Part shown: positions 28,867 through 41,824 of the stretch, piece after piece | Layout: every line of letters starts with the position of its first letter | How positions within the stretch are numbered: the first letter of the stretch is position 1 | Origin: Pseudomonas wuhanensis | Lineage (GTDB): Bacteria > Pseudomonadota > Gammaproteobacteria > Pseudomonadales > Pseudomonadaceae | Assembly: GCF_030687395.1 (NCBI RefSeq) | Contig: NZ_CP117430.1 | Coordinates: 1,302,001-1,366,000, forward strand | Direction of reading: 5' to 3' | DNA length: 64,000 nucleotides | The notes under the pieces: generated by a model | The model's input: only the letters and a program-made list of their open reading frames with translations | The model's database searches: none | What the model was told of the DNA's origin: nothing | Position numbers and translations under genes: made by a program

Positions 28867-29190
28867 CTACGCCGATGGCCGAGCCCGCAACCGTCGCCCA
28901 ATCACATCCAGAACATCACACCCGTCGCGCAATGGAATGGCGCAGAGCAAGGCAAAGTCACTGAGAATGAAGGACTCACACTCGACCGAACCGCGCATCG
29001 ACATGTTCTCAAGCACCTGAGTGACTGCACGAATTCGATAGTTGGCAGCGTCATACAAAACATCGAGCGGCGCGTGGGTATCGACGAACAGGGTGGGCAT
29101 GTCGTTGCAGTTGCCGGTGAGGGCCATGAAGCGGTTGTCGGGGTGGGGAATTGGATTTTCGTAGGGTGGATCGGGATGAAGACTTTTCAT
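28867..29190 (-). CDS. Small DUF3077/DUF6124-type protein (locus 1)
   Basis: This 107-residue protein is of a small helical type common in Pseudomonas (pattern 'TLFVDTHAPLDVLYDAANYRIRAV...' followed by a helical C-terminus). The function is unknown. The ATG at 29190 has AGAGG (29198-29202) just upstream; the in-frame extension beyond it is leader RNA, not protein. Its 5' leader folds into four hairpins that match, with compensatory changes, those of the gene at 39911-40288. An IS256-type element lies immediately upstream of the leader (29313-30685), so the original promoter is probably cut off. Confidence 0.7.
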   Translation of the reverse strand: MKSLHPDPPYENPIPHPDNRFMALTGNCNDMPTLFVDTHAPLDVLYDAANYRIRAVTQVLENMSMRGSVECESFILSDFALLCAIPLRDGCDVLDVIGRRLRARPSA

Positions 29191-29202: not shown

Positions 29203-29303
29203 GGTAGAAGTGGAGCTACCATCGGCCTTCCTACAGGCTTGGGTGGCAGCTATACGCGGGGTAGGAATATCGAGACCAGAGAACTCGACCACACCGAAGC
29301 GTG
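29203..29303 (-). ncRNA. Structured 5' leader of the locus 1 gene
   Basis: Four candidate hairpins, in plus-strand coordinates: D' 29290-29303 (CACGC-UUCG-GUGUG in the sense strand, one G-U pair), C' 29270-29288 (TCGAG/CTCGA), B' 29214-29251 (AGCTGCCACC with GATGGTAGCT) and A' 29203-29220 (GGTAG/CTACC next to the ribosome-binding site). A' and B' share bases, so they exclude each other. Each has a counterpart in the leader at 40294-40406 with pair-preserving changes. The family is not one I recognise. Confidence 0.55.
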
Positions 29304-29304
29304 C

Positions 29305-29312
29305 CCGCGCAC
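29305..29312. repeat. Left 8-bp target duplication of the IS256 element
   Basis: CCGCGCAC. The right copy is at 30686-30693. The site lies in the leader block GTGCGCGG that is intact at the second locus. Confidence 0.85.
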
Positions 29313-30685
29313 GGGAGTGTCAGATTTTTTGTGTGCGGGCCGGTAACGGCCTGCCATAAGGCAAGCCCTCATTTCACCAGTTTGACCTGGTAAATCGATC
29401 GCCATAAAGAATCGCAAACTGATTCATTGCGCTCTTCCAGTCGTGCGCTGCGCTGCCCCAATTGGCCGTGATGTTTTGCAGTGCCAGCCAGATCAGCTTC
29501 GTCGCTGCATCATCAGTCGGGAAGTGGCCTCTTGTCTTGATGATCTTGCGCAACTGAGCATTGATGCTCTCGATGGCGTTAGTGGTGTAGATCACTTTTC
29601 GGATGGCAGGCGGGAAGACAAAAAACGGGATGACTCGATCCCAGGCACGTCTCCAAGCGGCTACGACTGTTGGGTATTGTTTGCCCCAAGGCCCCGTTTC
29701 AAATGCGTCCAGAGCTTGCTCGGCAGCTTCAACGTTAAGCGCCTGATAAACCGGCTTGAGGGCTTTGGCCAACTCGCGGCGCTTGTCCCAGGAGGCGTAA
29801 TCAAGACTGTTACGGATCAGGTGCACGATGCAGGTCTGCAAGGTCGTCGTCGGAAACACCGCACTCAAGGCTTCTGGCATGCCTTTAAGGCCGTCAGTTA
29901 CCGCGATCAATACATCCTCAACGCCACGGGTCTTGAGGTCGTTGAAGACCTTCATCCAGAACTTGGCCCCCTCAGTGGTCTCAATCCAGATGCCCAAAAT
30001 GTCTCGGGTGCCGTCCGGCAGCACGCCCAGAGCCAGGTAGATGGCCTTGTTGCGAACCAGTCCTTCCTCACGGATTTTGACCCGCAGCGCATCGAAGAAA
30101 ATCACCGGATACATCGGCTCAAGCGGGCGTTGTTGCCAGGCAGTCACTTCCTCCAACACTGCGTCAGTGACCGAGCTGATGAAATCATGGGAAACATCGG
30201 TCCCGTACTGCTCCGAAAGGAATGCCCGGATCTCTCGGACGGTCATGCCACGGGCGTACATGGCAATGATTTTGTCGTCGAAGCCCGTGAACCGACGCTC
30301 ATGCTTGGGGATCAGCATTGGCGCGAAGCTGCCATCGCGATCCCGAGGAATGTCCAGACGCAGCGGGCCATCATCGGTCAGCACGGTCTTGCTGCTTTTG
30401 CCGTTGCGCTGGTTACTCGACTCCTCAGGGCGCTCCGCGCCCTGAGGGTAGCCAAGGTGGTGACCCAGCTCCGCGCCAAGGGCTCGCTCGATAAGCGCCT
30501 TTTTGAACGCCATGGATGCGTCCTGAATCGCCTCGGCGCTCATTGGGCCTTTAACGAACTGATCGATCAGCTCCTTCGGAATCGAAGGAAGCTGGGTTTT
30601 GGCCTCCGAGGCCGGTTTCTTTTTGGTCGGCATACATGCTCCTTTTCAACATGTTATGCCCGAACACAAAATTTCTGACAGTCCC
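29313..30685 (-). mobile_element. IS256-family insertion sequence
   Basis: A 1373-bp element with inverted ends: 29313-29340 (GGGAGTGTCAG...) and 30658-30685 (same motif, inverted; about 24 of 28 bases match). It is flanked by CCGCGCAC duplications of 8 bp, as expected for the IS256 family. It carries one transposase gene and lies between a DUF3077/DUF6124 leader and its probable promoter. The intact duplications suggest a fairly recent insertion. Confidence 0.92.
29374..30633 (-). CDS. IS256-family (Mutator-type) DDE transposase
   Basis: This 419-residue transposase shows the DDE residues in VIFFDALRVKI, AVTDGLKGMPEAL and YTTNAIESINAQLR. The N-terminal DNA-binding region and the WDRVIPFFVFPPAIRKVIY stretch are typical. 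The ATG at 30633 has AAAAGGAGC upstream. It appears intact, so the element could still move. Confidence 0.93.
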   Translation of the reverse strand: MPTKKKPASEAKTQLPSIPKELIDQFVKGPMSAEAIQDASMAFKKALIERALGAELGHHLGYPQGAERPEESSNQRNGKSSKTVLTDDGPLRLDIPRDRDGSFAPMLIPKHERRFTGFDDKIIAMYARGMTVREIRAFLSEQYGTDVSHDFISSVTDAVLEEVTAWQQRPLEPMYPVIFFDALRVKIREEGLVRNKAIYLALGVLPDGTRDILGIWIETTEGAKFWMKVFNDLKTRGVEDVLIAVTDGLKGMPEALSAVFPTTTLQTCIVHLIRNSLDYASWDKRRELAKALKPVYQALNVEAAEQALDAFETGPWGKQYPTVVAAWRRAWDRVIPFFVFPPAIRKVIYTTNAIESINAQLRKIIKTRGHFPTDDAATKLIWLALQNITANWGSAAHDWKSAMNQFAILYGDRFTRSNW

Positions 30686-30693
30686 CCGCGCAC
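30686..30693. repeat. Right 8-bp target duplication of the IS256 element
   Basis: CCGCGCAC, matching 29305-29312. Confidence 0.85.
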
Positions 30694-30736: not shown

Positions 30737-30920
30737 TTCAGGTGTCGACGCCAAAGCGTCCTCTCTAGTCTTGAAGGGTTCCTACACCCTGCCACTGAGT
30801 TTTCAGTGACCACCAGAGACTATCGATGGAGCGCATTTCACACCAGTTCATGGAAACCGCTACAACTTGAAGGAAACTTCCGACGACCTTGCCCAGAAAT
30901 TTCGCCGACTGTAAGACCGC

Positions 30921-39910: not shown

Positions 39911-40288
39911 TTAGCTGTGTGGCGCAGGTTTTGGGATGGCAACGTTATCCAGCATCCGGTTCACCGCCAGTTCTGCCAACATGACGATCTGTTGAATCGC
40001 CATCACCGTGTGCCGGTGCGGCCCTTCCAGATACCCCGCAATATCACTCGCCATCACACTCGCCTGGGCCAACGATTCACAGGTGTGAGCCAACAGGTCT
40101 TCGTCTTTGATATCCGGCGCGACCATATACATCGTGCTCGGCTTGCGGGCCACGGGGGATTTGAGGGCGGTGGGGTTGAGGTAGTGATCGAGCGCGCGGT
40201 TAGCGGCGTCGTGGAATTTTTTTGAATCGTTGGATTCGTAGGGCGAAACGTTCTCGGTTTCAGGGGGATTCGGTGTTTCTTTGAACAT
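39911..40288 (-). CDS. Small DUF6124-type protein (locus 2)
   Basis: This 125-residue protein has a Ser/Asn-rich N-terminus (NPPETENVSPYESNDSKKF) and helices in 'LLAHTCESLAQASVMASDIAGYL' and 'RHTVMAIQQIVMLAELAVNRMLD', the DUF6124 pattern. The function is unknown. The ATG at 40288 has GGAGCT upstream as its ribosome-binding site, which is part of a hairpin. Its leader shares structure with that of the gene at 28867-29190. The IS110-type element lies about 315 bp upstream of the start. Confidence 0.72.
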   Translation of the reverse strand: MFKETPNPPETENVSPYESNDSKKFHDAANRALDHYLNPTALKSPVARKPSTMYMVAPDIKDEDLLAHTCESLAQASVMASDIAGYLEGPHRHTVMAIQQIVMLAELAVNRMLDNVAIPKPAPHS

Positions 40289-40293
40289 GATGA

Positions 40294-40406
40294 AGCTCCA
40301 AGTAAGTAATGGAGCTGCCACTGATCGCCGCGACGCGATGGAGAGTGGCAGCTGTACGCAGGTTCGCGGACCGAGCTACTTGGAAACTCGGCATACCCGA
40401 AGGTAT
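40294..40406 (-). ncRNA. Structured 5' leader of the locus 2 gene
   Basis: Hairpins in plus-strand coordinates: D 40393-40406 (ATACC-TTCG-GGTAT in sense), C 40371-40391 (CCGAG/CTCGG), B 40313-40353 (AGCTGCCACT with AGTGGCAGCT, 10 bp perfect) and A 40294-40316 (AGCTCCA with TGGAGCT, 7 bp perfect, covering the ribosome-binding site). A and B share AGCT at 40313-40316. An additional hairpin upstream (GGTCGCTG/CAGCGACC, 40499-40519) also precedes the gene. Confidence 0.6.
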
Positions 40407-40498
40407 CCCGCGCACAGCCACCATGAGACCAAACGACAGGAACGTCGATTGGGGACGGTGATTATGCACCAAGTAAGCTAATTCAGGCCGCGACGCCC

Positions 40499-40519
40499 GG
40501 TCGCTGATTTGCAGCGACC
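40499..40519 (-). other. Upstream 8-bp hairpin near the locus 2 leader
   Basis: GGTCGCTG and CAGCGACC enclose ATTTG. It lies about 90 bases upstream of the first leader hairpin. A similar but shorter hairpin stands upstream at locus 1. Bases 40520-40597 between here and the IS show no other feature. Confidence 0.4.
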
Positions 40520-40720
40520 CCCAAAGCCTATCCACCGCTCTTCCGAGCGACAACCGTCAAAACCTGTCGGAAAGTTCTCAAAAAATCACCACATCTGTAG
40601 GACCTGCGCGGATATCTCTGACGACCACAGTCAACTGTAATCGAATGGACTCGCCCACGCCGAGGCGTCTATGCGCCACGGTGGCATCCTATAGATGTCA
40701 GCGACAGCGAGGGCGAGCCC

Positions 40721-41824
40721 ATGAGCAAGAGTACGTCGAAAAAGAATTCCCTGTCTGCAAACAACCTTTCGGCCTGTACCACCGTAGCCGTGGATCTGGC
40801 GAAGAGTGTGTTTCAAGTAGCGGGTGAAGATCATCTGGGTCAAGTGATCTACGAGAAACGCCTCAAATCCCGTGAAGCCTTTTCCACCTTCTTGCGCCAA
40901 TTGCCACCTGGCACCTCGGTCTTGATGGAAACCGGCCCAGGTGCGCAGGCTTGGGCCCGGTTGCTGCTGGAACAGGGCAATCAGCCTCGAATCCTGCCGG
41001 CTCAGCATGTGGCCAAGCATCGCAGCGGACCGAAGAACGACCGTAACGACGTGTTGGCCATCCTGCGCGCCGGCCGGGACGAGCGTGCTCACGCCGTGCC
41101 GGTCAAAACCGTAGCCGGGCTGGAAATGCAAGCGTTGCACCGAGTACGCCGGCGCTACGTGAAAGAGCACACCGCCATGGGCAACCAGATGCGTGGATTG
41201 CTGCTGGAACATGGTTTTTCCATCCCCCAGGGCAAAGCAGCCATTGACCGAAACGTCACTCAGCCACTCGAAGACTCCAGCCAGCCGATCCCCGCGTTGC
41301 TACACGAGCTGATCGCCGAATTGCTCGCTGAGTGGAAGCACATGGCTGAACGTATCGAAGTGATGACCGGGCGCCTGGAGCGCGCAGTTCGTGAAGACGA
41401 CACCGCGAAGCGGCTGATGACGGTACGCGGTGTCGGTCCGATCTTCTCCTCGGCCGTGATTGCCAAGCAGACCGAACCTGAGCGTTTTGCCAATGCCCGG
41501 GATTTTGCAGCTTACTTCGGCACAGTGCCCGAGCAGTACAGCAGTGGAAATACGATCCGGCTGGGCAAGATGGCCAAACGCGGGGATGCCTACATCCGCA
41601 GTCTGGCCATACAAGGTGCACATGCTGTCCTCAGACAGCTCAATCCCAGCTCGGATCATCCTGATGACCGCCGCCTGCAACGCAGGCTAGGCCGTCATGG
41701 ACAGAAAGGGGCTGCGGCGCGTCTGGCCAACCGCAACCTGCGGATCATCTGGGTGTTACGGCAAAACAAAGACACCTATCACCGCCAGCCGACTGAGCGT
41801 CAGGAGGTGGTGATAGGTCAGTGA
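40721..41824 (+). CDS. IS110-family transposase
   Basis: This 367-residue transposase has the RuvC-like DEDD domain (VAVDLAKSVFQV near residue 25, METGPG, KNDRNDVLAILRAG) and the C-terminal Tnp domain (MTVRGVGPIFSSAVIA, FAAYFGTVPEQYSSG). It appears intact. In this family the recombinase uses a structured bridge RNA from its non-coding end to recognise donor and target DNA. The ATG at 40721 is preceded by GCGAGGGCGAGCCC. Confidence 0.94.
   Translation: MSKSTSKKNSLSANNLSACTTVAVDLAKSVFQVAGEDHLGQVIYEKRLKSREAFSTFLRQLPPGTSVLMETGPGAQAWARLLLEQGNQPRILPAQHVAKHRSGPKNDRNDVLAILRAGRDERAHAVPVKTVAGLEMQALHRVRRRYVKEHTAMGNQMRGLLLEHGFSIPQGKAAIDRNVTQPLEDSSQPIPALLHELIAELLAEWKHMAERIEVMTGRLERAVREDDTAKRLMTVRGVGPIFSSAVIAKQTEPERFANARDFAAYFGTVPEQYSSGNTIRLGKMAKRGDAYIRSLAIQGAHAVLRQLNPSSDHPDDRRLQRRLGRHGQKGAAARLANRNLRIIWVLRQNKDTYHRQPTERQEVVIGQ

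Follow-up and report, generated by a model that had tools for sequence, protein, structure and literature searches.

The regulator C4 was first recognised in phage P1, and RNAs of its family have a 5' end made by RNase P and a processed length of about 77 nt. The phage P1 record annotates a1 and b1 (both putative), C4, a2, b2 and icd, and in its sequence the C4 junction CTGTCAA pairs with TTGACAG of a1 and a2, the C4 P3 loop TCACTAAC is complementary to b2 GTTAGTGA, and b1 GTTAGTGC is unlike b2 in its last base. In the excerpted text of PMC5320573, C4 is an antisense RNA that arises by processing and belongs to the immunity of phages P1 and P7, a 4-nt difference blocking cross-reaction between the two; the text also reports many C4-like group 1 sRNAs, with evidence of processing, in the single genome of Acinetobacter baumannii AB5075. 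According to the excerpt of PMC2864571, C4 and a1b1 are established RNA families. IsrK of Salmonella prophage Gifsy-1 (RF01394), as presented in the excerpt of PMC4825925, is a terminator-bearing leader RNA from which transcription can read through into an antirepressor-like gene, the short leader RNA turning on the read-through message, and the same excerpt describes the CI RNA of phage P4 as a processed leader that pairs with sites before and after itself (seqA and seqC).

In the window, by which we mean the whole 64-kb stretch of DNA that was analysed, the leader of a DUF6124 gene matched C4 (Rfam RF01695) at 40341..40428 with 69.4 bits (cut-off 45), and 5' of it the a1/b1 element (RF03163, c4-a1b1) was matched at 40480..40531 with 50.4 bits (cut-off 46.7); no other Rfam match over cut-off was found in the 64 kb. 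All parts of this unit lie on the minus strand. One guide of C4, a' (CCGCGA, 40364..40369), is the single-stranded junction and is complementary to TCGCGG, which is carried both by the a2 hairpin directly 3' of C4 (40324..40339, the relative place of the annotated a2 of phage P1) and by the a1 hairpin (40484..40499). The other guide, b' (TTCCAAGTAG, 40376..40385), lies in the P3 loop and is complementary to b2 (TTACTTGGAG, 40296..40305), which overlaps the Shine-Dalgarno sequence, and to b1 (TTACTTGG, 40469..40476), the latter pairing including one G-U. Thus both guides are complementary to downstream sites, and both downstream sites are repeated 5' of C4. The gene itself (39911..40288, ATG at 40286-40288) encodes 125 aa with a DUF6124 match (PF19619, 74.2 bits, E 7.9e-21), and a putative promoter chosen by eye lies at 40525..40553 (TTGTCG at 40548-40553, 17-bp spacer, TAGGCT at 40525-40530). 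An IS110-type transposase gene on the opposite strand (40721-41824, plus) adjoins the unit upstream.

Judged by these matches, the window leader is a C4 antisense RNA with an a1/b1 companion target element. A preliminary description of this DNA had seen here a covarying leader that fitted no named RNA family and had proposed a new cis-regulatory RNA; the two Rfam matches contradict the former, and a new cis-regulatory family was ruled out because RF01695 names the leader as a member of the known C4 antisense RNA family. The hairpins on which that proposal was built do exist on the minus strand, namely the UUCG hairpins ATACC/GGTAT (40393-40406) and CACGC/GTGTG (29290-29303) and the second hairpins CCGAG/CTCGG and TCGAG/CTCGA, and the first and second hairpins are the C4 stems P2 and P3, respectively. 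The span of 40294-40406 proposed for the leader was too short, since the 17-bp closing stem P1 reaches 40428 and its 5' strand is left out. The third hairpin of that description joins the 3' strand of P1 (40344-40353) to a downstream copy (40313..40322, minus strand).

The C4 stretch folded with -46.8 kcal/mol compared with -27.8 for shuffles (z -5.8), and 0 of 200 shuffles were as stable; the minimum-energy fold contained P1 and P3, and the UUCG stem P2 was missing from it. All 48 C4 copies from the window's genome were then aligned with MAFFT for the covariation test, in which 94.0% of the cells in the 27 pairs of P1, P2 and P3 were paired. Double-changed cells numbered 128 versus 29.6 in shuffles, a value that 0 of 500 shuffles reached, so the claims that covariation would be significant and that RNA structure is under selection before DUF6124/DUF3077-type genes were both borne out. 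Pairs with a double change numbered 14 versus 8.6 in shuffles (1 of 500 reached this), and a control slid by +2 gave more such pairs (17 versus 14) but far fewer such cells (34 versus 128). The support sits in P1 and P2; in P3 one of five pairs was double-changed, with 87.1% of the cells paired. The CCACC tail at the 3' end of C4 was well conserved in the same alignment, and a hairpin beginning at b1 occurred in 33 of 48 units versus 21.5 in shuffles, which is a weak signal. Pairing of the third hairpin across the 48 units averaged 6.30 for own and 5.96 for foreign partners (412 of 20000 permutations reached it), which means that it is hardly unit-specific and is at most a competing fold; it was dropped as a conserved switch because of the nearly equal values.

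The preliminary description had assigned the same leader to two DUF3077/DUF6124 genes. This is correct for the first gene, which is DUF6124, but the gene of the second unit (28867..29190, minus strand, 107 aa) has no Pfam match at all. Both leaders are C4, but the second one (29239..29327, minus strand) is a remnant that scored 34.5 bits, below the cut-off of 45. A Transposase_mut insertion sequence within it (29313..30686, minus strand, approximate borders; transposase 29374-30633, PF00872, 411.9 bits) separates this remnant from its a1/b1 element (30771..30823, minus strand, G000:C1:1332771-1332823; 40.2 bits, below the cut-off of 46.7), so an insertion has split the C4 unit to which the second leader belongs. 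Both junctions of the insertion sequence show inverted ends and the short direct repeat GTGCGCG. With a local model, R1, the remnant scored 46.8 bits, R1 having been built including that copy; the C4 of phage P1 as positive control scored 47.5 bits. The surviving loop and junction of the second C4 are still complementary to their downstream sites.

The window's genome (6.59 Mb, one contig; G000) contained at least 48 C4 matches, 46 of them over cut-off; of the 1818 candidates from a first look 150 were scored, and the full number may be higher. No C4 was found in 14 control genomes. The units were spaced by a median of about 100 kb, and the genes 3' of the 48 C4 were DUF6124 in 33 cases and DUF3077 in 5 (38 together), with Bro-N genes making up 2 of the other 10. 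An upstream a1b1 match accompanied 40 of the 48 C4, many of these matches being below the a1b1 cut-off; the whole genome had 47 a1b1 matches, of which 23 were over 46.7. There were 39 DUF6124 domain matches in the genome, none with an internal stop. Six DUF6124 and three DUF3077 matches (one gene is in both counts) had no upstream C4 match, so the protein can occur in the absence of a C4 lock. These DUF6124 genes are at G000:C1:3975874, 5777167, 4177585, 5658138, 2430144 and 1701768; a weak C4-like match (27.3 bits) was seen for 2430144, and a1/b1 elements at 3975656, 5776950 and 5658426 lie near such genes as if C4 had been lost.

Among 29 related genomes, the window's included, C4 was found in 20, namely in 18 of 19 of the same genus and 2 of 10 outside it. 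The 18 carriers of the genus had from 1 to 48 copies (at least 10 in 13 of the 19 genomes), and both outsiders had one each. DUF6124 was present in 14 of the 29, every one within the genus, and the two numbers were not always parallel, as one genome (G009) had 38 C4 and 2 DUF6124. In a survey of 143 gammaproteobacterial genomes, in which at most 28 candidates were scored per genome so that the counts are lower bounds, at least 6 genomes had C4; the window's own genome showed at least 28 copies there and the other five at least 1 to 3.

The summed guide-site pairing of all 48 units was 15.58 for own downstream sites and 9.82 for foreign ones, and 0 of 20000 permutations reached the observed own-pairing mean. 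The own site was ranked top for 40 of 48 guides and within the top three for 46. All 48 P3 loops were different, and the junction a' codes were partly common (GTCTACCAA in 7 of 48). The upstream sites matched less sharply, with 7.58 for own versus 5.81 for foreign sites of the loop and 7.16 versus 5.62 for the junction. Exceptions were L055 with a sum of 7.5, and L067, L068, L075 and L064 with sums of 11 to 13; for the P3 loop of L071, the Shine-Dalgarno sequence offered no good match. L055 (G000:C1:6338349-6338435) is a C4 of 69.9 bits without matching sites that stands before a methyltransferase gene, and in another unit, L032, the junction code CTGTCAA is that of the phage P1 C4. Some foreign guide-site pairs scored up to 16.0, equal to own ones; given these pairs and the partly common a' codes, cross-talk is possible. 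Foreign pairing was alike within the genome and between genomes (9.82 versus 9.87; share scoring at least 14, 1.5-1.7% versus 1.3%), so there is no sign of tuning to or from foreign sites, and selection against cross-talk inside the genome was discarded as giving no signal. By their pairing scores, the C4 codes are mostly private to their own unit.

To look beyond this genome, species genomes were searched for DUF6124, which gave 105 loci, of which 80, all from Pseudomonas, were kept. C4 was found upstream of the gene in 75 of these 80 (one of the five misses starts 41 bases before the gene), so the same leader shape does stand before other members of the family, as had been predicted. Own pairing was 15.04 and foreign pairing 10.02 for 79 C4 matches in the 80 loci, one minus-strand row being left out. 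Units from different strains that occupy one chromosomal place, with matching flanks on both sides, were also compared in 154 ordered pairs, which are non-independent and in some groups of which neighbouring or replaced units may be mixed: downstream, own pairing was better in 100, swapped pairing in 15 and 39 were ties, and upstream these numbers were 108, 9 and 37. The P3 loop and its sites thus usually change together at shared places in different strains, with exceptions. The clearest place was G000:C1:1397380, with the loops TTGGATTGGTG, TTGAATCCTC and TTGAGGGGTAC versus the sites TACCAATCCAA, GAGGATTTA and GTATCCCTCAA; L153, L155 and L159 were misfits there with a downstream pairing of only 5 to 5.5, and the upstream match of L142 was non-specific (6.5 versus every member). 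At 20 further C4 loci from ten genomes, b2 pairing was at least 7 in 20 of 20 and a2 pairing at least 6 in 19 of 20, values that stand without a foreign control, and a1 or b1 was weak in several. Ten genes behind these further loci were scanned and included two DUF6124, one DUF3077 just under cut-off, one Bro-N and one SymE-type toxin (PF08845, 48.8 bits). The last is behind L257 (G105:C13:4587-4669), a C4 with matching a1, b1, a2 and b2 in another gammaproteobacterium; no C4 was found in 3 other genomes of that bacterium's family, and the SymE protein had no viral relative, which leaves the pairing of C4 with SymE as a single case. The excerpt of PMC2718517 reports a repeat family of P. fluorescens, R178, of 101 bp, with copy numbers of 18, 28 and 9 in the three strains given, and this repeat might be a C4 element.

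The unit was also found in viral sequences. Of 114 viral stretches with a DUF6124 relative, 80 were kept, and 64 of these had C4 20-120 nt 5' of the gene. Among the other 16, C4 lay about 520-550 bases before the gene in 8, one had a strong match on the opposite strand and 7 had none, two of these because their contigs start with the gene. Own pairing was 15.55 versus 10.50 for foreign pairing in 59 distinct viral units (76 plus-strand C4 matches of at least 71.4 bits out of 113 rows). A second C4 match of 48 to 58 bits was seen 5' of the first in L165, L166, L207, L209, L213, L216, L217, L219 and L222, mostly 400-500 bases away and further in L209 and L213, which means that units may stand in tandem. 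In prophage loci the unit was flanked by genes for tail fibre assembly and tail sheath proteins (L227) or lay upstream of a tail protein gene (L175 and L198), and in these three loci it looks like an autonomous added gene. DUF6124 had no match in plasmid records and one in phage records, and no match to the DUF3077 protein of L033 was found in phage records.

We consider it very probable that the leader forms a self-contained antisense unit of the C4 type which keeps its DUF6124 gene shut. Transcription from a promoter directly upstream would run across a1/b1 and C4 into the gene. The C4 part is predicted to fold into three stems, as its covariance-model score and covariation indicate, and RNase P would probably excise it, as happens with the C4 of P1 and P7. 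Its guides a' (junction) and b' (P3 loop), whose complementarity was found, could then pair with a2 and b2, and with b' on the Shine-Dalgarno sequence ribosomes would be unable to start on the DUF6124 message. Because of phage P4 CI and Gifsy-1 IsrK, we infer two possible roles for the a1/b1 copy: C4 may act on its own transcript as well, or a short leader RNA may soak up C4. As most of the 48 copies have their own code, each would mainly regulate itself, and the most likely outcome is a translational block on the small protein encoded in the same unit.

The proposal of the preliminary description was a leader that acts only in cis, as a riboswitch or attenuator switching the gene by refolding. 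The 3' strand of P1 can indeed pair over 10 bp with its copy near the Shine-Dalgarno sequence, and T-runs of at least 5 within 75 bases 5' of C4 occurred in 12 of 48 units versus 2.5 expected from simple letter shuffles, which suggests a leader terminator there in some units; however, this P1-strand pairing is hardly unit-specific while the pairing of the loop with the Shine-Dalgarno sequence is strongly so, and the fold is that of the named antisense RNA RF01695, which makes a purely cis-acting leader improbable. That the units are decaying selfish repeats without function would agree with their high copy number, with the range of 0 to 48 per genome in one genus and with the unit split by an insertion sequence, but guide and both sites change in match at the same chromosomal place and none of the 39 DUF6124 domain matches has an internal stop, and we give this explanation hardly any credence.

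Two further explanations concern what the array does. It may serve chiefly as trans-acting immunity to incoming phages or elements bringing a C4-locked gene of the same code, for C4 belongs to the immunity of P1 and P7, where according to the excerpt of PMC5320573 4 nt end cross-reaction, and viral contigs carry C4-DUF6124 units as described above; almost every unit, however, has its own site alongside, and foreign scores within and between genomes are alike, so that we think a main role in trans unlikely. The C4 and the small protein may instead form a pair resembling type I toxin-antitoxin systems, in which C4 silences a self-harming protein. The icd gene behind P1 C4 is annotated as an inhibitor of cell division, Bro-N genes stand behind C4 (2 of 48 here, and also L260) as does the SymE-type toxin gene of L257, and the three units among tail genes are placed like autonomous extras. 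Yet the window's DUF6124 protein matched no PADLOC, PHROGs or NCBIfam model and no fold at E <= 0.001, and some copies are kept although they have no C4 match, so a toxin-like role is a real possibility that we hold somewhat doubtful.

The window DUF6124 protein was predicted as a helical hairpin with modest confidence (mean pLDDT 70.3, pTM 0.45); its model had no fold match at E <= 0.001 in BFVD or PDB, and the protein had no match among PADLOC, PHROGs and NCBIfam models. In the available portions of the open-licence literature searched, DUF6124 was absent and DUF3077 appeared in one paper, on furfural tolerance, and neither a link of C4 to DUF6124/DUF3077 nor own-site codes in such an array was found. 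So, as far as these searches show, the link of C4 with DUF6124/DUF3077 and the private codes are new, the C4 and a1b1 families being already known. A wider reading, to which we give about an even chance, is that C4 is a general plug-in lock which has left the phage immunity operon, with a private two-part code that is written three times (in the guide, upstream, and at the Shine-Dalgarno sequence) and rewritten in step at shared places in different strains, in tens of copies per Pseudomonas genome. If this is true, one cell would contain dozens of antisense switches almost independent of one another, a natural library in which every switch guards a small protein better left unexpressed. DUF6124 and DUF3077, both named as of unknown function, would gain a concrete candidate regulator and a state, silent until C4 fails. 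Within a single genome, tens of guide-site pairs would be available for studying how antisense specificity persists and shifts, and the paired sequences could serve as separate switches.

Compared with the known systems, the window unit resembles the C4 of P1 and P7 in its three-stem fold, in the order a1-b1-C4-a2-b2-gene, in a junction guide on a2 and in a P3-loop guide on b2 near the start codon. It differs in that its target is DUF6124 and not icd-ant (no antirepressor gene was found behind the window C4, as a P1-type C4-icd-ant immunity operon would have), in its place on a bacterial chromosome, with at least 48 matches in one genome, and in the P3 loop, which is different in every copy of the window's genome. 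With the C4-like group 1 sRNAs of A. baumannii AB5075, as far as the excerpted source describes them, it shares the many copies per bacterial genome and the variable guide loop; a linked target gene family or pairing with own sites is not described in that excerpt, whereas here most C4 adjoin their sites and gene. The window a1b1 matches isrK (RF01394) weakly, with 27.1 bits below a cut-off of 50, and so falls short of that family, and another gene stands behind it. With the P4 CI RNA of the excerpted account it has in common the pairing sites on both sides of the RNA, but CI acts there by early transcription termination, whereas the position of the window's b2, on the Shine-Dalgarno sequence, suggests an effect on translation.
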